From: Nitrospirota bacterium
GTDB taxonomy: Bacteria; UBA2233
NCBI GenBank assembly: GCA_011620345.1
Contig: WOZJ01000028.1
Span: forward strand, 1 to 8,610
Reading direction: 5' to 3'
DNA length: 8,610 bases
Shown here: one piece after another, positions 271 to 8,610 of the stretch
How the letters are laid out: every line of letters starts with the position of its first letter
Numbering within the stretch: position 1 is the stretch's first letter
The notes under the pieces: model-generated
The model's input: only the letters and a program-made list of their open reading frames with translations
What the model was told of the DNA's origin: nothing
Databases searched by the model: none
Position numbers and translations under genes: made by a program

Positions 271-2241
271 ATGGTACTTGTGATTCTTGGGGCTGTCGCC
301 CTTTGGTTGCTCCTTAGCCTTTTTGCCCTTCTGCTTAGGGAACGGTTTTATTTTGTCTTTCCTTTAAGCGCCGTCGGCTCTTTGTGCATTTTTGCCGGAA
401 GCGTATGGGCCCTTTCCAAATCCCAGCCTGAAATACCGCTCGCCTTCTACTTATCCGGATTTTTACTGCACTTGCGCCTGGATGCCTTAGCCTCGGTCTT
501 TCTAGCCTTGCTTGGCGCTTCATCTTTTGGCATTTCTTTGTATTGTCTGGGGTATTTTCGCCGGACCCAAGGCGCGAATCCTTCCCTGCTCGGCTTTTGG
601 TATCACCTTTTCCTTTCCGCCATGGCACTGGTTTTGTTGGCCGACGATGCCTACGCCTTCATGATGTCCTGGGAGATCATGGCGCTTTCTTCGTATTTTC
701 TGGTCGTTACCGACCATCGCATTACGGTCATTCGTAAGGCCGGATTTTTGTACCTCCTCATCGCCCACCTCGGAGCATTTGCCATTTTGCTCTCGTTCGC
801 CATCTTGGGGAAAGGGGATTGGAGCTTTGCCGCGATGCGCCAAATGGATCATAGCGCGGGTGCAGCAAGCGTGGCCTTCCTTCTTTCGCTGTTGGGCTTT
901 GGCGCCAAGGCGGGGGTATTGCCCTTTCATGTCTGGCTTCCGGAAGCACATCCAGCGGCACCTTCCCCGGTATCGGCTCTCATGAGCGGCGTTATGCTCA
1001 AGACGGCCGTTTACGGCATGATGCGCGTTGGCTTCGATCTTCTGCCCCTGCAATTATGGTGGTGGGGGGCCATCGTCCTTGGGCTTGGCTTGTTGGCAGC
1101 CCTCTTCGGCGTCCTTTTTGGCGCGGTAGAGACCGACATGAAACGCCTGCTCGCGTATTCGTCCATCGAGAACATCGGCATTCTACTGGTCGGCATGGGG
1201 CTCGGGCTGATCTTTTTTTCGTTTGGCATGGCACCCATCGCGGCCCTGGCCCTTACTGCCACCTTGTACCACGCCATCAACCACTCGTTGTTCAAATCCC
1301 TCCTTTTTCTTGCAACCGGTTCGGTATTGCACGCCACAAGCGAGCGGAACCTGGGCAAACTGGGCGGGCTCATCCACCCCATGCCCAAAGTGGCCCTGCT
1401 TACGCTTGTCGGAGTCCTCGCACTTGCCGGTTTGCCGCCTTTGAATGGCTTTGCCTCCGAGTGGCTTCTTTTACAGACCTTTTTGCTGACGCCCTCCCTG
1501 CCCAATTCCTTCCTCAACATGCTGATTCCCGTGGCGGCGGGCGGTCTTGTGCTGGCAAGCGCGCTTGCCGCTTACGTAATGGTCAAGTTCTACGGGGTTG
1601 TTTTTCTAGGACAGCCGCGCGAGGAAAAACTTAAGACGGCTCACGACGCCGATTTTTGGGAGAGGCTCGGCATGGGGTGGCTTGCTGCGGGGTGCATTCT
1701 TCTAGGAATCTTGCCCGTGTCGGCAGTCTTGATGCTCGATAAGGCCACGAAGCTCCTGGTTGGCGTAGGCATCGGCCAAACCGCCGGCAAGAGCTTCTTT
1801 TTTCTCACCCCTATCGCCTCCGAGCGCGCAAGCTACAGCCCTTTGTTTTTCTTGCTGGTCGTCTTGGCCGTGGTGATTTTGACGTTTGTCGCCGTCCGGT
1901 TTTTCTACCACGGCAGGGTGCACCGCGCGCCCGCGTGGGATTGCGGGTTCGGCGTGCTCACACCTCGCATGGAAGATACGGCAGAAGGCTTCGGGCAACC
2001 GATACGTCGGATTCTTGAGCCTGTTTTTTCTATCGAGCGGCAGATGCCCGACCCATTTTCCGAAAAACCTCGCTACCACATCCAGGTGGAAGACCGTCTC
2101 TGGACGCTTCTTTATCGCCCGATCGTCCGCGTTACCGAGTGGGTTGCAGCCAGAATCGCCATTATGCAGCACGGTCGAATCTATGGCTACCTGCTTTATA
2201 TGTTCGCCACACTCCTCCTTTTGCTCTTTTTAGCACGATGA
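271..2241 (+). CDS. hyfB: HyfB-like antiporter-type membrane subunit
   Basis: This is a large multi-spanning inner-membrane protein of the NuoL/MrpA/HycC/HyfB family. It is expected to move H+ or Na+ in the complex. At 656 aa it is close to the length of E. coli HyfB. Family channel residues are in place: E135 in the WEIMALSSY helix, K213 in GFGAKAGVLPFH, K244 in MSGVMLKTAVYG, K342 in HAINHSLFKSLL and E397 in LPPLNGFASEW. TDMKRLLAYSSIENIG (288-303) is the usual loop motif. The C-terminal part (about 555-580, AWDCGFG...FGQPIRRI) is the HyfB/HycC hallmark that sets it apart from NuoL, followed by a last helix (about 639-655). I chose ATG at 271 over TTG 268, although no clear ribosome site precedes either; an in-frame stop at 256-258 limits extension. 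It is the first gene of the operon and overlaps hyfC by 4 nt (ATGA). Confidence 0.95.
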   Translation: MVLVILGAVALWLLLSLFALLLRERFYFVFPLSAVGSLCIFAGSVWALSKSQPEIPLAFYLSGFLLHLRLDALASVFLALLGASSFGISLYCLGYFRRTQGANPSLLGFWYHLFLSAMALVLLADDAYAFMMSWEIMALSSYFLVVTDHRITVIRKAGFLYLLIAHLGAFAILLSFAILGKGDWSFAAMRQMDHSAGAASVAFLLSLLGFGAKAGVLPFHVWLPEAHPAAPSPVSALMSGVMLKTAVYGMMRVGFDLLPLQLWWWGAIVLGLGLLAALFGVLFGAVETDMKRLLAYSSIENIGILLVGMGLGLIFFSFGMAPIAALALTATLYHAINHSLFKSLLFLATGSVLHATSERNLGKLGGLIHPMPKVALLTLVGVLALAGLPPLNGFASEWLLLQTFLLTPSLPNSFLNMLIPVAAGGLVLASALAAYVMVKFYGVVFLGQPREEKLKTAHDADFWERLGMGWLAAGCILLGILPVSAVLMLDKATKLLVGVGIGQTAGKSFFFLTPIASERASYSPLFFLLVVLAVVILTFVAVRFFYHGRVHRAPAWDCGFGVLTPRMEDTAEGFGQPIRRILEPVFSIERQMPDPFSEKPRYHIQVEDRLWTLLYRPIVRVTEWVAARIAIMQHGRIYGYLLYMFATLLLLLFLAR

Positions 2242-3182
2242 GCAAGCTTATGGGCATCCTCTTTCAGCTCTTCCAATCGCTTTTGGTTATTGCCTTCGCG
2301 CCTCTTTGGCTGGGTTGGATCAATCAATGCCGGGCATGGCTGTTGAACGCCAAGGGTGCGGGCGTCTTCCAGCCTTACCGCCAATTGCGCAAACTCTTTT
2401 CCAAGGATGCAGTGCTTGCTGAAAACGCCTCTCCCGTTTTTCGCACCGCGCCCTACGTCATCTTTGGCTCTATGTGGCTTGCGGCGGCCATGGTCCCGAT
2501 ATTCGTCCCGGATTTGCCCTATGCTCCCGCGGCGGATGTGATCGCCCTGACCGGCGTGTTTGCCGTGGCGCGCGTCTTTCTCGCGCTGGCGGCCATGGAT
2601 GTCGGTACAGCCTTCGGCGGGCTTGGCGCAAGGCGCGAAATGTTCGTGGGCTTTTTGGCGGAACCGGCACTCTTAATGGTTTTTTTTGCCGCATCCTTAA
2701 TTAGCCAGTCCACCTCGCTTTCTACGATTGTCAAAACCCTGGCTCATCCGCCCTTTGTTTTTCATCCGAGCCTTGCGTTCGCCGCCGCAGCCTTTCTCAT
2801 GGTCTTTTTGGCTGAAAACGCCAGGCTTCCGGTGGATAACCCCAGAACGCACCTTGAGCTCACCATGATCCATGAAGCCATGGTGCTTGAATATTCGGCA
2901 AGACACTTGGCGCTCATCGAGTGGGCCTCAAGCATCAAGCTTTTTACCTATACGGCCCTTGGCATTGCCCTTTTCTTCCCTTATGGCATTGCCCTTACCT
3001 GGAAAGGGCTCCCTATAGCCTTTTTGGCGCTTGTTCTCAAATTCTTCCTGGCGGGCGTCTTTCTGGCGGTATTTGAGACGTTATGCGCGAAGATGCGGCT
3101 TTTCCGTGTGCCAGAATTCATGGGCATGGCCTTCTTGCTGGCGGTCTTGAGTATGTTCACCCACGTCCTTTTGGGCTCCTAA
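2238..3182 (+). CDS. hyfC: HyfC-like membrane anchor subunit (NuoH family)
   Basis: This is a hydrophobic 314-aa protein of the NuoH/HycD/HyfC/EchB family, nearly the length of E. coli HyfC. In relatives it joins the hydrophilic arm to the membrane arm and forms part of the ion path or, in complex I, the quinone tunnel. Visible signatures are KGAGVFQPYRQLRKLF (39-54), the loop FGGLGARREM (126-135) with E134, AEPALLMVFF (141-150) and the acidic cytoplasmic segment ENARLPVDNPRTHLELT (193-209) continuing to E213 and E218. I chose ATG at 2238 because it overlaps the hyfB stop as ATGA, the usual coupling arrangement; the frame is open further upstream but only inside hyfB. It lacks its own clear ribosome site, so translation probably depends on ribosomes finishing hyfB. 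Its stop TAA is followed directly by the hyfE ATG. Confidence 0.95.
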   Translation: MSKLMGILFQLFQSLLVIAFAPLWLGWINQCRAWLLNAKGAGVFQPYRQLRKLFSKDAVLAENASPVFRTAPYVIFGSMWLAAAMVPIFVPDLPYAPAADVIALTGVFAVARVFLALAAMDVGTAFGGLGARREMFVGFLAEPALLMVFFAASLISQSTSLSTIVKTLAHPPFVFHPSLAFAAAAFLMVFLAENARLPVDNPRTHLELTMIHEAMVLEYSARHLALIEWASSIKLFTYTALGIALFFPYGIALTWKGLPIAFLALVLKFFLAGVFLAVFETLCAKMRLFRVPEFMGMAFLLAVLSMFTHVLLGS

Positions 3183-3830
3183 ATGCTGGAATTCGTCAAC
3201 TTCCTTGCGGCACTCCTTCTTCTGATTGCCTTTGCCATGCTTGCGCAAAGACGAGAGTTCCCCTTGATAAACCTTTTCGCGCTGCAAGGCTTGGTCTTGT
3301 CAATCAGCACCTTTTCCGTTGCATTCATGACCGGGAAAAACCATCTTTATCTTTCGGCCGCCATGACGTTTCTTCTGAAAGCTATCGTTCTTCCCGTCAT
3401 TCTTCGCCGCCTGGTACGAAGGCTTGGCGTGCAATGGAGCACGGAAACGCTCCTGAACATTCCGACAACAATGCTTTTGGGGATCGTCCTCGTGGCGTTC
3501 TCCTTCAATCTCGCCAACCCTGTTTCAAGGCTGGCGGGAACGGTCACGCACGGCACCTTCGCGATTGCCACGGCGAGCGTGCTCCTTGCTTTCTTGATGA
3601 TGGTCACCCGCAAAAGAGCCATATCCCAAGTCATGGCCTTTTTGGCGATGGAAAACGGTCTTTTTTTTGCGGCGACAAGCGTGACGTATGGCATGCCGAT
3701 GGTGGTTGAAATCGGCATCGCGCTCGATGTGCTCGTTGGCGTCTTTATCCTGGGGATTTTCCTTTTTCAGCTGGCCGAATCGCCAGACCACCTCGATTTG
3801 AGCCACCTCGAGAAAATGAAGGCGGACTAA
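3183..3830 (+). CDS. hyfE: HyfE-like small membrane subunit
   Basis: This 215-aa membrane protein matches the length of E. coli HyfE, a subunit of Hyf-type complexes and relatives that is absent from the smaller formate hydrogenlyase-1. Several hydrophobic helices are evident: about 5-20, 29-50, 57-75, 95-112, 127-141, 149-168 and 173-196. The segment QVMAFLAMENGLFF (149-162), with E157, resembles the NuoK/MrpC helix bearing a conserved membrane glutamate. A second acidic pair, E176 and D182, sits in the last helix, as expected if it contributes to ion transfer. The C-terminus is short, charged and soluble. ATG immediately follows the hyfC TAA, and its own TAA is immediately followed by the GTG of hyfF, so it is translationally coupled on both sides. 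Its presence places the complex in the Hyf/Ehr branch rather than the Hyc branch. Confidence 0.9.
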   Translation: MLEFVNFLAALLLLIAFAMLAQRREFPLINLFALQGLVLSISTFSVAFMTGKNHLYLSAAMTFLLKAIVLPVILRRLVRRLGVQWSTETLLNIPTTMLLGIVLVAFSFNLANPVSRLAGTVTHGTFAIATASVLLAFLMMVTRKRAISQVMAFLAMENGLFFAATSVTYGMPMVVEIGIALDVLVGVFILGIFLFQLAESPDHLDLSHLEKMKAD

Positions 3831-5270
3831 GTGGAGATTGGTTTCATCCTTGGGGTCCCCCTCTTAGGGGGGATCACTCTCGCCATGCTGGGCCAAAAAG
3901 CATGGGCATCCGCCCTCAATAGCCTCTTTTCCTTCTTGCTGCTTGCCGCCACGGCCTTTCTCGTGCTTCGCTTCGTCAAGCATGGCCCCTTTAGCGCCTT
4001 TGGGGAACAGTTTTTCATTGACTCTCTGAACATTTTCTTGATTGCCCTGACCTCCCTTGTCGCCTTTACCACCTCGCTTTTTAGCGGAACCTACATGCGC
4101 CGCGAGAAAGAAGAGGGCCGGCTTACCCCTGGCAGCCTGCACCTCTACCACTCTATGTTCCAGATCTTTGTCCTGACCATGGTCCTCGCCCTTTCGTCCA
4201 ACAACCTGGGCATTTTGTGGGTATCCATGGAGGCGGCGACACTTTCAACCGTTCTTCTGGTCTCGCTTTATCGCACCAAAGCAGGATTCGGGGCGGCATG
4301 GAACTATTTCATCCTTTGCAGCGTGGGAATTTCCCAAGCGCTTTTTGGCACGATTCTGCTTTATTTCTCCGCCGCGCAAGTCGCTGGCCCCGACGAACAT
4401 GCAATTCTTTGGACGCACTTAGAAAGCATCAAGGATTCGTTGCCGCCAAGCGTCGTTTCCCTTGCCTTCATTTTCCTGCTTGTCGGTTACGGCGCCAAGG
4501 CAGGCCTTGTTCCCCTCCACAACTGGCTGCCCGATGCGCATGCCGAAGGGCCAACGCCGGTGTCCGCACTTCTGTCCGGGCTTTTGCTCAACGTCGCCTT
4601 GTATGCAATTCTACGCGTAAAAATCCTGGTCGACGGCGCCCTTCATTCCAACTTTGCCGGCAATCTCATGATGGCTTTCGGCCTTTTGAGCGTGGTCGTC
4701 GCCGCCTTCTTCCTTCTTCGCCAGAAGAGCTTGAAGCGCCTCTTTGCTTATTCTTCCATCGAGCATGTAGGCTTGATGACCTTTGCCTTTGGCCTGGGCG
4801 GGGTCGGCAGCATGGCCGGCCTCTTGCACATGACTACCCATACCCTGGCCAAGTCCGCGGCCTTCTTCGCGGCAGGCGAAGTCATCCAGAAAGCACATAC
4901 CCAAACAATGGGCGACATCCGCGGCGTCATACGCCAAATTCCAGGGGCTGGCTGGGGCCTTATGTTTGCAGGCCTTCTGTTGGCCGGTATCCCCCCTTCC
5001 GGCATTTTTCTAAGCGAGTTTATGATGCTGGGATTAAGCGTTCGTCAAGCGGTATGGACGTTGCCCTTCATGCTCGTAGGCTTGGGAGTCGGCTTTGCGG
5101 CCATTGTCTGGAAAATTCAGGAGATGGTCTTTGGAGAGGCGAAGGCGACGAGCGTTTCCTTTTCTGCGCCTCTGGTGTGGATTCACCTCGTCTTGGCGAT
5201 CCTTTTAGGTTTTTATATTCCGCCGTATCTTCTGCATTGGTACCGCGAAGCGGCGAAACTTCTAGGATAA
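3831..5270 (+). CDS. hyfF: HyfF-like second antiporter-type subunit
   Basis: This is a second NuoL/M/N-type membrane protein, 479 aa, somewhat shorter than E. coli HyfF. Conserved channel residues are E134 (WVSMEAATLS), K223 (GYGAKAGLVPLHNW), K341 (THTLAKSAAFF) and E396 (GIPPSGIFLSEF). SLKRLFAYSSIEHVG (300-314) is the family loop. At the position where HyfB has K244, this protein has N254 (SGLLLNVALY), which from recollection is also the HyfF-type residue. Having both HyfB and HyfF implies at least two ion-translocation modules. I chose the GTG start because it directly follows the hyfE TAA and has GAAGG at 3818-3822 eight nt upstream; the next ATG would remove part of the first helix. A GC-rich hairpin lies 26-41 nt into the gene. 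The stop is 10 nt before hyfG. Confidence 0.94.
   Translation: MEIGFILGVPLLGGITLAMLGQKAWASALNSLFSFLLLAATAFLVLRFVKHGPFSAFGEQFFIDSLNIFLIALTSLVAFTTSLFSGTYMRREKEEGRLTPGSLHLYHSMFQIFVLTMVLALSSNNLGILWVSMEAATLSTVLLVSLYRTKAGFGAAWNYFILCSVGISQALFGTILLYFSAAQVAGPDEHAILWTHLESIKDSLPPSVVSLAFIFLLVGYGAKAGLVPLHNWLPDAHAEGPTPVSALLSGLLLNVALYAILRVKILVDGALHSNFAGNLMMAFGLLSVVVAAFFLLRQKSLKRLFAYSSIEHVGLMTFAFGLGGVGSMAGLLHMTTHTLAKSAAFFAAGEVIQKAHTQTMGDIRGVIRQIPGAGWGLMFAGLLLAGIPPSGIFLSEFMMLGLSVRQAVWTLPFMLVGLGVGFAAIVWKIQEMVFGEAKATSVSFSAPLVWIHLVLAILLGFYIPPYLLHWYREAAKLLG
3857..3871 (+). repeat. GC-rich hairpin near the hyfF start
   Basis: CCCCC (3857-3861), a 5-nt loop TCTTA and GGGGG (3867-3871) form a strong short stem just inside hyfF. 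An overlapping alternative pairing, GGGGTCCCC (3852-3860), competes for the same C run. No T run follows, so it is not an intrinsic terminator. It could tune translation or mRNA decay between hyfE and hyfF, or be incidental to the Gly/Pro/Leu coding there. Confidence 0.4.
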
Positions 5271-5280
5271 GGGTAGCCCC

Positions 5281-6828
5281 ATGGATCTTGCAGGTTTTAC
5301 GGCCATGCTCCAGACGATCAGCAAAGCCCCTAAAGCGGCCTACGGCGTGTTTGAGGTATCGAAGCTGCGACCTGCCTGCAGCATCCTCCAGTCAGCGGGC
5401 GGGCGGCTTATCGCCCTCTGGGGGAGTGATGAGCGCGAATCTCTCGATGCACCTTGCCCCTTTGCCCTGCACCTCGCCTTTGCCCTCGGTCCAACGCTTG
5501 GGCTGGTCTGGATTGCCATTCCTCTCGAAGCGCCCGAATACCCGAGCATTCATGACATCTTTCCGGCCGCATCACGGATGCAGCGCGCCGCCTTTGATTT
5601 GTCCGGGCTTTCCGCGATCAACAGCCCAGACGCCAGAAAATGGCTCCGTCACGGAGCATGGCCGCAAGAGGCATTCCCCCTGCAAAAACGCTTTTCCGGC
5701 TCTTTCCCCATAGAGGCCGATGATTACCCCTTTGTCACGGTCGAAGGCGACGGCGTATCGGAAATTCCGGTAGGGCCAGTCCATGCCGGAACGATCGAGC
5801 CAGGACACTTTCGCTTCTCGGTCGTTGGTGAAAAAGTGCTGCGCCTGGAAGAGCGGCTGGGTTACACGCACAAAGGCATCGAAAAGCGCTTTGAATCGCT
5901 CGGGATGATGGACGGCGCACGCCTGGCTGGACGAATCAGCGGAGACAGCACGGTCGCTTACGCATGGGCCTACGCAATGGCAATCGAAAGGGCGACGGGC
6001 ACAACGCCGCCCCAAAGGGCCCTTTGGCTACGGGCCCTTTGGCTCGAACGAGAGCGCGCGATGAATCACTTGGGCGATTTGGGCGCCATAGCGAACGATG
6101 CCGGGTTTGCGTTTGGGCTTGCCCAGTTTTCCCGCCTCAAAGAAGACCTGTTGCGTGAAAATTTTGCCATGAGCGGCCACCGCTACCTCATGGACGCAGT
6201 TGTTCCAGGCGGGGTCGCTGGCGACCCCGGGGATCGTCTTGTCCACGTCGTCGATGAAGCCCAAAGATTTGAAGCGGAGCTAGACGAGCTCAAGGCCATA
6301 TACGACGATCACGCCGGCCTGCAAGATCGTTTCCGGGGAGCCGGGCGTCTTTCCCCAAGTCTTGCCGCTAGGCTTGGCGTGGTCGGTCTTGCCGCCCGCG
6401 CGAGTGGCAAAGCCATGGATTTGCGGGCAGACTTTCCTTCCTCGCCCTATGACCAACTTGACCTCAAAATCGCTACGGCGGCCGAGGGCGACGTGGCCGC
6501 GCGAGTGGCCGTACGCTTTGCCGAAATCCAGGAATCCCTTCGCCTGTGGAGAATCATCGCGCAAAGAATCCCGTCGGGCAGCGTCCTGGAGCCAATACCC
6601 CCAGACCCCCCTCCTGCCCTAGGCGTAGGATGGGTGGAGGGCTGGCGAGGCGAAGTATTGATTGCGCTCGCGCTGGGCAATCATGGGGCACTTGCACGCG
6701 TCCACGCGCATGATCCTTCCTGGCAAAACTGGCCGGCACTCGAGCACGCCGTCTTGGACAATATCGTTCCCGATTTTCCTTTGATCAATAAATCGTTTAA
6801 CCTCAGCTACAGCGGTCACGACCTCTAA
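5281..6828 (+). CDS. hyfG: HyfG-like NuoCD-type subunit lacking all NiFe cysteines (Ehr type)
   Basis: This 515-aa soluble arm subunit has two domains. Residues about 20-145 are NuoC-like (30-kDa subunit; HDIFPAASRMQRAAFDLSG, 91-109). Residues about 160-515 are related to NuoD and the hydrogenase large subunit: IPVGPVHAG (162-170), PGHFRF (174-179), LGYTHKGIEKRF (193-204), ARASGKAMDLRADFP (372-386), SPYDQLDL (388-395). The NiFe ligands are gone: where HycE has RVCGICG this protein has R218-I-S-G-D-S, and where HycE has DPCYSC it has N507-L-S-Y-S-G. There is no cysteine after residue 59. It stops at SGHDL, matching the mature end of a hydrogenase large subunit, with no cleavable tail. It cannot carry a normal NiFe site, which places it in the Ehr class; the reaction is unknown. 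AAGGG at 5269-5273 is a plausible ribosome site for this ATG. It is followed by hyfI after 14 nt. Confidence 0.93.
   Translation: MDLAGFTAMLQTISKAPKAAYGVFEVSKLRPACSILQSAGGRLIALWGSDERESLDAPCPFALHLAFALGPTLGLVWIAIPLEAPEYPSIHDIFPAASRMQRAAFDLSGLSAINSPDARKWLRHGAWPQEAFPLQKRFSGSFPIEADDYPFVTVEGDGVSEIPVGPVHAGTIEPGHFRFSVVGEKVLRLEERLGYTHKGIEKRFESLGMMDGARLAGRISGDSTVAYAWAYAMAIERATGTTPPQRALWLRALWLERERAMNHLGDLGAIANDAGFAFGLAQFSRLKEDLLRENFAMSGHRYLMDAVVPGGVAGDPGDRLVHVVDEAQRFEAELDELKAIYDDHAGLQDRFRGAGRLSPSLAARLGVVGLAARASGKAMDLRADFPSSPYDQLDLKIATAAEGDVAARVAVRFAEIQESLRLWRIIAQRIPSGSVLEPIPPDPPPALGVGWVEGWRGEVLIALALGNHGALARVHAHDPSWQNWPALEHAVLDNIVPDFPLINKSFNLSYSGHDL
6012..6045 (+). repeat. 16-bp palindrome overlapping a 15-bp near-duplicate in hyfG
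   Basis: CCAAAGGGCCCTTTGG (6012-6027) is a perfect palindrome. It overlaps two adjacent 15-nt units (6016-6030 and 6031-6045) that share the core GGGCCCTTTGGCT and encode RALWL twice (residues 247-251 and 252-256 region). In HycE the same stretch aligns without a gap (from memory, ...AQMIRAILLE...), so it does not look like a recent insertion of one unit. The role is unknown and it may be chance codon similarity. Confidence 0.6.
6211..6228 (+). repeat. Inverted repeat inside hyfG
   Basis: GGGGTCGC and GCGACCCC flank two bases (TG), giving a 7-bp stem with a CTGG tetraloop if folded as RNA. It lies in coding sequence for a Gly/Ala/Asp/Pro loop (about residues 311-316). No T run follows, so it is not a terminator. 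It may slow ribosomes or be incidental to GC-rich glycine and proline codons. Confidence 0.5.
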
Positions 6829-6842
6829 ACCGGAATTGCTCA

Positions 6843-7367
6843 ATGGAAAACATCGTCAAGAAAATACTTAAAACAGGGATCAAGAGCGAAGCCGCCCCTT
6901 TTCCCGATGAACGCTTGCGGGTTCTTCGCGGGCGGCTTTCTGAAGCGGTCTTGCGCCGCTTCGGGCGGGCGCTTGCCATAAGGCACGTGGATGCAGGCTC
7001 ATGCAACGCTTGCGAGCTTGAAATCAACGCCATGCACAACCCTTACTACAACCTTGAAGGCTTGGGCATCCATTTCGTGGCCAGTCCTAGACATGCCGAC
7101 CTTTTGCTGGTGACCGGGCCAGTATCACGCCACATGGAGCTTGCCTTGAAGCGCACTTATGAGGCTACTCCAGACCCAAAGCTCGTCGTCGCTTGCGGCG
7201 ATTGCGGCGTTTGTGGCGGAATTTTCGGGGAAAGCTACGCAAGCCTAGGGCGCGTGGCCAACGTGATTCCGGTTGACGTTGCAGTGCCCGGATGCCCGCC
7301 TTCGCCTAATGCCATCATTCAAGGCATTCTGACGGCGCTGATGCCAGAAGCCGAAACCCAGGCTTAA
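6843..7367 (+). CDS. hyfI: HyfI-like NuoB-family [4Fe-4S] small subunit
   Basis: This 174-aa small subunit of the NuoB/HycG/HyfI/Ech small-subunit family carries the single [4Fe-4S] cluster (N2 equivalent) nearest the HyfG site. Likely ligands are C54 and C57 (GSCNACELE), C121 (GDCGVCGGIF) and C151 (VPGCPPSP). They follow the hydrogenase Cx2C pattern rather than the tandem CC of complex I. Extra cysteines C118 and C124 flank C121. SPRHADLLLVTGPV (81-94) is a family signature. Residues 1-45 are basic and probably dock on the membrane arm. It ends about 23 residues after C151 and lacks the long C-terminal extension of E. coli HyfI and HycG. The ATG follows hyfG by 14 nt with only a weak GGA (6832-6834) ahead of it. 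As the cluster ligands survive while the NiFe ligands in its partner do not, electron transfer is probably retained. It is the last gene of the operon. Confidence 0.94.
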   Translation: MENIVKKILKTGIKSEAAPFPDERLRVLRGRLSEAVLRRFGRALAIRHVDAGSCNACELEINAMHNPYYNLEGLGIHFVASPRHADLLLVTGPVSRHMELALKRTYEATPDPKLVVACGDCGVCGGIFGESYASLGRVANVIPVDVAVPGCPPSPNAIIQGILTALMPEAETQA

Positions 7368-7451: not shown

Positions 7452-8297
7452 CTAGAACAGGGCAATATTGGGCAGCTCGTAGCCTTCGCCCGGGGGGCGC
7501 AAGAACGAGCGTACGAGGTGCACGCAGGAAAAATCACCGCGCGAGATGGCGTGCATCAACCATGGGTCTTGCCCTAAGACTTTGCGGGCGATGGTAGCGG
7601 CATCCATCCCCTTTTCGCTAAGCGGCAGGATTTTTTCCATGAGCCCCTCCATAAAGGCGAGCTTAGCCTTCAGGGCATTTTCTGGATCGGAAAGAACGCC
7701 CTTGTGGTAGCAGAAGGCAAATTTGGGCCTTAAACCGATTACGCGCCTTAGTGAATCCATCAGATCCATGGCATTTTCGTAGGGTCTTGCGCACGGAACC
7801 TTCGCGCTCAAGAACAAATCCCCCAAGAAAACCCAGCGCCTTTCGGGCTCAAAGAATACCACGTGATCGTGAGCATGTCCTGGCGTGGGGATGACCATGA
7901 GCCGTACCTTGCCGGCCTCGAGCGTATCTGGAAGAGGGTTTGCCTCGAGGCCATCTGGAACTCCCCAAAGGAGTCTTCTATAGGCGCCATGGGCCATGAT
8001 CGAAGGGTTTTTTAAGATAGGCAAGGAAGCTTTCGGTGCAAACACGGGGATTCCAAAAGCGGCCTTCAGGAATGCGCTGTTGCCTATGTGGTCCTCGTGG
8101 GCGTGGGTGTGCACGATAAGCTGGGGTGGCTTGGCTTGAAGTGCCCTGGCAAGCGATCGTCTGGCCCGAAAAAACCCGGAGTCGATCAGCACGTCCCCAA
8201 GAAGCGGAACGAACGTGCCGTAAGACAACACGCCCGATAGCCGTGTTTGAAGCCGCACAAGGGTAAGCTCGTTGGTTAATTTTTTGAGCTCGAACAC
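7452..8297 (-). CDS. Metallo-beta-lactamase-fold hydrolase
   Basis: This is a 281-aa soluble protein of the metallo-beta-lactamase superfamily with a full binuclear metal site. HTHAHEDHIG supplies H65, H67, D69 and H70; H141 lies in PTPGHAHDH, D160 in VFLGDLF and H198 in FCYHKG. No signal peptide is visible, so it should be cytoplasmic. The domain is followed by a helical C-terminal part (about 205-265). The substrate cannot be read from sequence; glyoxalase II-like thioesters, lactones or other esters are all possible. There is no flavodoxin domain, so it is not a complete flavodiiron protein. I chose GTG at 8297-8295 because GAGGAG (8311-8306) lies 8 nt upstream and the protein then begins MFELKKLTNELTLVR, a normal first strand for this fold. 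A longer in-frame reading from 8441 would add 48 low-complexity basic residues. It is convergent with the hyf-like operon, so not co-transcribed. Confidence 0.9.
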   Translation of the reverse strand: MFELKKLTNELTLVRLQTRLSGVLSYGTFVPLLGDVLIDSGFFRARRSLARALQAKPPQLIVHTHAHEDHIGNSAFLKAAFGIPVFAPKASLPILKNPSIMAHGAYRRLLWGVPDGLEANPLPDTLEAGKVRLMVIPTPGHAHDHVVFFEPERRWVFLGDLFLSAKVPCARPYENAMDLMDSLRRVIGLRPKFAFCYHKGVLSDPENALKAKLAFMEGLMEKILPLSEKGMDAATIARKVLGQDPWLMHAISRGDFSCVHLVRSFLRPPGEGYELPNIALF

Positions 8298-8305
8298 GCC
8301 GCCAG

Positions 8306-8311
8306 CTCCTC
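8306..8311 (-). promoter_or_regulatory. Strong Shine-Dalgarno for the hydrolase
   Basis: On the - strand GAGGAG stands 8 nt before a GTG codon. It is the strongest ribosome-binding match in the window and decides the GTG start against the upstream in-frame ATG at 8441. Confidence 0.75.
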
Positions 8312-8323
8312 GTTTCTGTTCTC

Positions 8324-8610
8324 TTACGCCTCGTTTTCTACTACGGGGAGGCTCTCCCTGCCGTTTAAAGACCTCTTGGATGAAAGACCTTCTTGGGACT
8401 CTATCCTCTCCTCCAAATCGATAAACCCCTGGCCCGGGCACTCGATAAGAAGGCGCATGGCCCCTCGATGTGTTTGAACTTTCAGTTTACCACGCATGGA
8501 ACAGCAGAGGGCTTCCATCCCTATTGCAATTGCACACCTTAGAATGAATGGCCTGGCAACATCCCAAGGCGCTTGATGCACCACGGAGGGTGTTTTAGAA
8601 TATTGAGGCT
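8324..8610 (-). CDS. Possible partial gene running off the right edge, unrecognised
   Basis: A - strand frame is open from the right edge to TAA at 8326-8324, over 90 codons, ending 26 nt before the hydrolase start. The internal GTG-GTG at 8584-8579 has no Shine-Dalgarno ahead of it, so if the frame is coding it probably begins outside the window. The visible part includes a cysteine pair (MEALCCSMRGKLKV) and an acidic C-terminus (LEERIESQEGL...ENEA). It matches no family that I recognise. If real, it would be the upstream partner of the hydrolase gene. Against it are the lack of recognisable domains and the possibility that this is the hydrolase's leader. Confidence 0.3.
   Translation of the reverse strand, partial: PQYSKTPSVVHQAPWDVARPFILRCAIAIGMEALCCSMRGKLKVQTHRGAMRLLIECPGQGFIDLEERIESQEGLSSKRSLNGRESLPVVENEA

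Follow-up and report, generated by a model that had tools for sequence, protein, structure and literature searches.

Energy-converting hydrogenase-related (Ehr) complexes have been published without an assigned function in a series of studies (PMC6349859, PMC10284858, PMC12342949, PMC10432482, PMC7304191). The Ehr complexes of Geobacter (EhrA-D/L/S), Nitrospira, AOA, CPR and Riflemargulisbacteria resemble one another, and the locus analysed here, in combining a group-4-like large subunit without NiFe ligands with an HycG-like small subunit and antiporter-like membrane subunits. In Cupriavidus metallidurans, a six-gene cassette identical to that of this locus was considered incomplete and not likely to have a role in lithotrophy (PMC2864759), and in Acidithiobacillus ferrooxidans HydDB assigned it to the non-hydrogenases (PMC7735108); in a comammox genome, the same cassette was labelled a group 4 hydrogenase (PMC5596200). 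The Ehr class and the hyfBCEFGI cassette are therefore already described as non-hydrogenase, and the present locus adds another member.

The window analysed here is an entire contig of 8,610 bases from a 1.8-Mb draft genome in 72 contigs. It carries a tight hyfB-C-E-F-G-I operon on the + strand, with the same gene set and order as in C. metallidurans CH34 and A. ferrooxidans but in a different host. The hyfB gene (271..2241, +), which could start with either the TTG at 268 or the ATG at 271, encodes an antiporter-like (NuoL/M-type) subunit that matches the NCBIfam model NF005086 'hydrogenase 4 subunit B' above its cut-off (825.8 bits). It is followed by hyfC (2238..3182, +), encoding a NuoH-like membrane subunit (PF00146, 8.3e-31), by the gene for a HyfE-like membrane subunit (3183..3830, +), approximately 53-68% identical to its relatives and below the cut-off of NF008556 'hydrogenase 4 membrane subunit' (3.4e-25), and by hyfF (3831..5270, +), which has a GTG start and encodes an antiporter-like subunit scoring above the cut-off of NF005045 'hydrogenase 4 subunit F' (693 bits). 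The large subunit HyfG (EhrL; 5281..6828, +) is a NuoC+NuoD-like fusion (PF00346, PF00329), and the small subunit HyfI (EhrS; 6843..7367, +) is of the NuoB/HycG type (PF01058, 8.4e-31; PDB 6cfw_J and 7z0s_G). No HyfA/HyfH-type electron-entry subunit is encoded in the cassette. A metallo-beta-lactamase-fold gene (7452..8441, -; PF00753, 3.4e-24) is convergent to the operon; it was rejected as a member of the complex on its absence near Ehr in the fetched relatives, and probably lies outside it. The best relatives of its product among the searched genomes (33% and 29%) occur in two genomes, G021 and G042, that each also encode Ehr elsewhere.

A first-pass annotation had proposed that HyfG is a hydrogenase-like large subunit in which all four NiFe ligands are replaced. 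The hyfG reading frame is intact, specifying 515 amino acids without an internal stop, and the best PDB sequence match of its product is E. coli HycE (7z0s_E, E=6.7e-61), which is also the best match of the predicted fold (TM 0.82, E=2.7e-31). On alignment with HycE, the L1 motif C241-G-I-C244 is replaced by S220-G-D222-S223 (5938..5949, +), and D529-P-C531-Y-S-C534, within the L2 motif DPCYSCTDR, is replaced by N507-L-S509-Y-S-G512 (6799-6816), within N507-L-S-Y-S-G-H-D-L515 (6799..6825, +). HycE C241, C244, C531 and C534 correspond to S220, S223, S509 and G512, bearing out both replacements as first read; the four cysteine ligands expected at L1 and L2 of a group 4 NiFe hydrogenase are absent from HyfG. 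The canopy aspartate (HycE D529), conserved in hydrogenases and in most of the complex I sequences compared here, is likewise changed, to N507. Displacement of the cysteines to other positions was rejected, since HyfG has only two cysteines, both within the N-terminal NuoC-like part, and its C-terminal domain is cysteine-free, as the annotation had stated. Like the other Ehr proteins compared, HyfG terminates at the position of HycE R537, the last residue of the mature hydrogenase domain, where HycE is cleaved (PMC9474812), and thus leaves a maturation protease no segment to remove; the HycE-type C-terminal extension is absent, as it also is in some CxxC group 4 proteins. The AlphaFold model of HyfG has low confidence around both motif loops (pLDDT <50 at residues 146-198 and 491-515).

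The 80 HyfG relatives in the genome collection, which come from Betaproteobacteria and closely related groups and are 53-63% identical, all show the same kind of ligand replacement. Their L1 site reads [SA]-G-D-[STA], with one exception carrying C at the G221 position, and their L2 site N-L-[SN]-Y-[SATC]-G-x-D-[LR], with one exception carrying S at the N507 position. Residues D222, L508, Y510, G512, D514, E173, H263 and R456 are invariant in these 80 proteins and are encoded by mixed synonymous codons, indicating that they are under selection. Six distant Ehr relatives (~34-42% identical) also retain D222, with an [SA]-[GS]-D-[STA] signature and NKSFNL[SN]Yx-G-x-D-[LR] at the extreme C-terminus, while CGIC, DPCFSC and a 29-residue tail are all present in L114, a CxxC hydrogenase aligned with them as a control. 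Sequencing error or decay at L1 and L2 was rejected on the recurrence of the signature, with varied synonymous codons, in the 80 relatives. The original description of a specific loss, not decay, consequently holds as far as the exclusion of decay is concerned, but the replacement is ancient and clade-wide, not a recent loss in the window. Of 25 Ehr-bearing genomes, eight yielded no HypD; some of these eight are draft metagenome bins, and they include the isolate assembly of Paraburkholderia susongensis (L061). The host of the window encodes HypD, so that a genuine NiFe hydrogenase is probably present elsewhere in its genome.

On a large-subunit tree built without named reference Ehr proteins (Geobacter, Nitrospira), the window protein falls into a group of ligand-less proteins (SH-aLRT 100) that is separate from CxxC group 4 hydrogenases and from NuoD. 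The Ehr assignment made in the first-pass annotation is supported by this grouping, by the absence of NiFe ligands and by the six-subunit composition (hyfBCEFGI), and published accounts of Ehr agree with it (PMC6349859, PMC10284858, PMC7304191, PMC12342949). The small subunit is of the NuoB/HycG type and carries [4Fe-4S] ligands, and a single operon holds both antiporter-like and NuoH-like membrane subunits; the operon almost certainly encodes a six-subunit Ehr complex and not a hydrogenase. The accompanying caution that a hydrogenase-4 label would mislead was well placed, with NCBIfam naming two of the subunits 'hydrogenase 4 subunit B/F' and the comammox cassette being called a group 4 hydrogenase.

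Relative to the other described Ehr complexes, the window belongs to the proteobacterial hyfBCEFGI branch, its HyfG being 58% identical to that of C. metallidurans CH34, whereas its host lineage is poorly sampled and has no phylum-level relative among the searched genomes. It shares with E. coli FHL/hydrogenase-3 (HycE-HycG, 7z0s) the fold, the NuoC+NuoD fusion, the HycG-like cluster and the proton-path residues, but lacks the four cysteines, D529, the cleaved tail and the FdhF/HycB/HycF electron entry. Respiratory complex I (NuoD/Nqo4) belongs to the same superfamily and has the membrane arm in common with the window. Nqo4 H38 and Y87 are quinone-site residues of complex I; they correspond in HyfG to I172, in the beta1-beta2 loop H168-A-G-T-I-E173-P (5782..5802, +), and to G221, so that neither is retained, and the operon lacks NuoEFG (the NADH module) and NuoI. 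The host has two more NuoD-type loci, on contigs C53 and C66, which are accompanied by NuoL/M/N-type genes and seem to represent two sets of complex I. Pyrococcus MBS/MBX (6u8y), a relative described as a ferredoxin-dependent non-hydrogenase complex, matches HyfG more weakly than HycE does (6u8y_L, E=1.7e-22 versus 6.7e-61).

The provenance of the operon was assessed on a five-protein concatenated tree. It places the window as the sister lineage (support 0.68) of a group of 69 loci, most of them betaproteobacterial, and a Rhizobium pRL11 locus falls outside the clade formed by both. With the closest relatives found being betaproteobacterial, the whole contig spanning only 8.6 kb and the only same-genus genome in the set searched (G001) lacking Ehr, the contig might have been binned in error from another organism, such as a proteobacterium, in which case the finding would be uninformative on the host. 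Several observations make this unlikely. The window branches beside the betaproteobacterial clade and not inside it, its GC content (0.560) is inside the range of host chunks, and its tetranucleotide correlation (0.532) exceeds both the lowest value for host chunks (0.497; median 0.63) and that of every betaproteobacterial locus (maximum 0.427). Because binning itself uses composition, a composition match does not prove host origin. Horizontal acquisition of the operon is the likely explanation, and misbinning the less likely one.

The residues that are kept in the complex delineate a putative coupling route. In HycE, protons are routed through E193, H284, E437, R395 and the canopy pair R478/D529 (PMC9474812). 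HycE E193, H284, R395, E437 and R478 map to HyfG E173, H263, R373, E415 and R456, all kept, leaving the canopy aspartate as the only altered position of the route. The HyfI ligands of the proximal [4Fe-4S] cluster (C54, C57, C121 and C151) are present in 79 of 79 relatives. In the membrane arm, HyfB E136, K214, K343 and E398 are conserved in 63-64 of 64 relatives, HyfF E134, K223, K341 and E396 are conserved in relatives, and HyfC E193, D200, E207 and E213 do not vary in any of the 67 relatives or of the six distant Ehr. Since proton-path residues, FeS cysteines and membrane charges are all retained, the complex resembles, by its sequence, a proton-coupled pump in complete form that has one FeS cluster and a pocket without metal, even if conserved FeS ligands alone are no proof of turnover.

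We therefore lean, if only slightly, towards a general picture in which Ehr would be a reductant-fed, proton-coupled ion pump with a pocket that handles a small non-H2 substrate. As HyfA/HyfH-type electron-entry subunits are not encoded, the donor would be soluble, low-potential and ferredoxin-like, reducing the HyfI [4Fe-4S] cluster. The remodelled pocket (E173, D222, N507, Y510, R456) could then support proton-coupled chemistry on the substrate, or proton uptake alone, and the resulting charge change would drive ion pumping via HyfC and HyfB/HyfF. Against this general picture counts the fact that no Ehr has a known substrate, donor or activity. A non-redox module for ion or pH homeostasis, in which an Mrp-like transporter would carry a purely structural peripheral arm, agrees with the conservation of the antiporter-like subunits and with the pH-homeostasis role suggested for Methylacidiphilum Ehr (PMC6688271); invariance of the four FeS cysteines and of buried proton-path residues would be unexpected in a structural relic, however, and we regard this alternative as improbable. 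Partnership with a separate formate dehydrogenase (FDH-Ehr) has been proposed for Riflemargulisbacteria and Geobacter (PMC6349859), and Geobacter Ehr subunits are more abundant on formate than in hydrogen-containing conditions (PMC7894505). In the window, such a formate link appears quite unlikely: the contig has no fdh gene, fdh does not recur among the recurrent flank clusters examined, and the HyfA/HyfH-type linkers are absent.

Gene neighbourhoods in the relatives suggest a more specific version of the pump picture. In 17 of the 54 loci with enough upstream DNA, a gene encoding a SulP permease lies on the same strand and ends 45-288 bp upstream of hyfB. The tested genomes contain 1-8 SulP matches in 1.9-7.7 Mb, and random placement would be expected to yield approximately 0.02 such adjacencies in 54, an estimate that ignores relatedness. 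Ehr flanks also include genes resembling hexapeptide gamma-carbonic anhydrases and CsoSCA, cbbO/Q/R and the RubisCO genes cbbLS, with at least one carbon gene in 26 of 80 loci. Five of the 40 long loci contain cbbL, and in L013, L022, L025, L048 and L072 the distance between RubisCO and Ehr is no more than 10 kb. A single Thiobacillus contig (L048, DDRS01000007.1, with L155:1082-11747) carries SulP, a gamma-CA-like gene, Ehr, cbbOQLS, cbbR, dabB, dabA and the carboxysome genes csoS2 and csoSCA, and is possibly a CO2-concentrating island that includes Ehr. A second SulP-type permease of ~720-750 aa, whose transporter domain is interrupted midway by an insert (L018:2680-4860; similar in L023, L045 and L052), adjoins the ordinary SulP, both upstream of Ehr. 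A spermidine-synthase-like gene also recurs beside Ehr (L022:12337-13251, -; similar in L048, L061, L065, L153 and L154), in Thiobacillus, Paraburkholderia and Variovorax hosts. No report of an Ehr-SulP-RubisCO linkage was found in the non-subscription literature searched, the main text of a 2024 review of the inorganic-carbon toolkit does not contain 'hydrogenase', 'complex I', 'NDH' or 'PF00361' (PMC10880623), and no discussion of a carbon-gene neighbourhood was found for the C. metallidurans and A. ferrooxidans cassettes.

These linkages point to a candidate inorganic-carbon complex, in which reduced ferredoxin or the proton-motive force would drive Ehr either to hydrate CO2 vectorially or to power bicarbonate import, by analogy with cyanobacterial NDH-1MS or DabAB. 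Besides the SulP, carbonic-anhydrase-like and RubisCO linkages, it agrees with the failure to detect DabA in 22 of the 25 Ehr genomes. Ehr has a PF00361 proton-channel subunit in common with DabAB (DAB2) and co-occurs with it in the Thiobacillus contig, but the cassette lacks the DabA carbonic-anhydrase-like subunit; the window contig has no gene for a CO2 hydration subunit (DabA or CupA/B), and PF10070 is absent from the host. Other loci have MetRS/ApbC, spermidine synthase-like or DnaE neighbours, cassettes on Paraburkholderia, Variovorax and Rhizobium plasmids lie next to non-carbon genes, and the carbon-linked loci are phylogenetically related. SulP may, moreover, transport sulfate, and no zinc ligand set was recognised in HyfG. 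On this evidence we hold an inorganic-carbon role to be doubtful but worth pursuing. A Calvin-cycle carbon role is not supported in the window's host, whose genome has no RubisCO, SulP or DabA; together with the plasmid copies, this indicates that a carbon role, if any, may be lineage-specific. The carbon-gene linkage should thus be read as a clue to the betaproteobacterial branch and not as a finding on the window's host. More speculatively, the outcome of pumping in betaproteobacterial autotrophs might be inorganic-carbon accumulation next to SulP/RubisCO. We tentatively put forward, as a minority possibility, that the hyfBCEFGI branch is a further inorganic-carbon-accumulating complex beside NDH-1MS and DAB, its former NiFe pocket (SGDS/NLSYSG) now serving to hydrate CO2 or to energise bicarbonate transport by the neighbouring SulP. 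Unlikely as it is, the inorganic-carbon reading is the specific form of the pump picture that lends itself best to testing; because it overlaps that picture, the likelihoods we assign to the rival readings do not sum to one.

Ehr complexes are widespread, and the literature surveyed, up to 2025, still assigns them no reaction. The strict conservation of the replaced pocket, with the proton path and FeS ligands kept, indicates that Ehr does something specific, and is a reason to stop labelling hyfBCEFGI as hydrogenase-4 or formate hydrogenlyase. The carbon-uptake neighbourhood makes a role in inorganic-carbon accumulation testable in culturable Thiobacillus or Sulfuricella.
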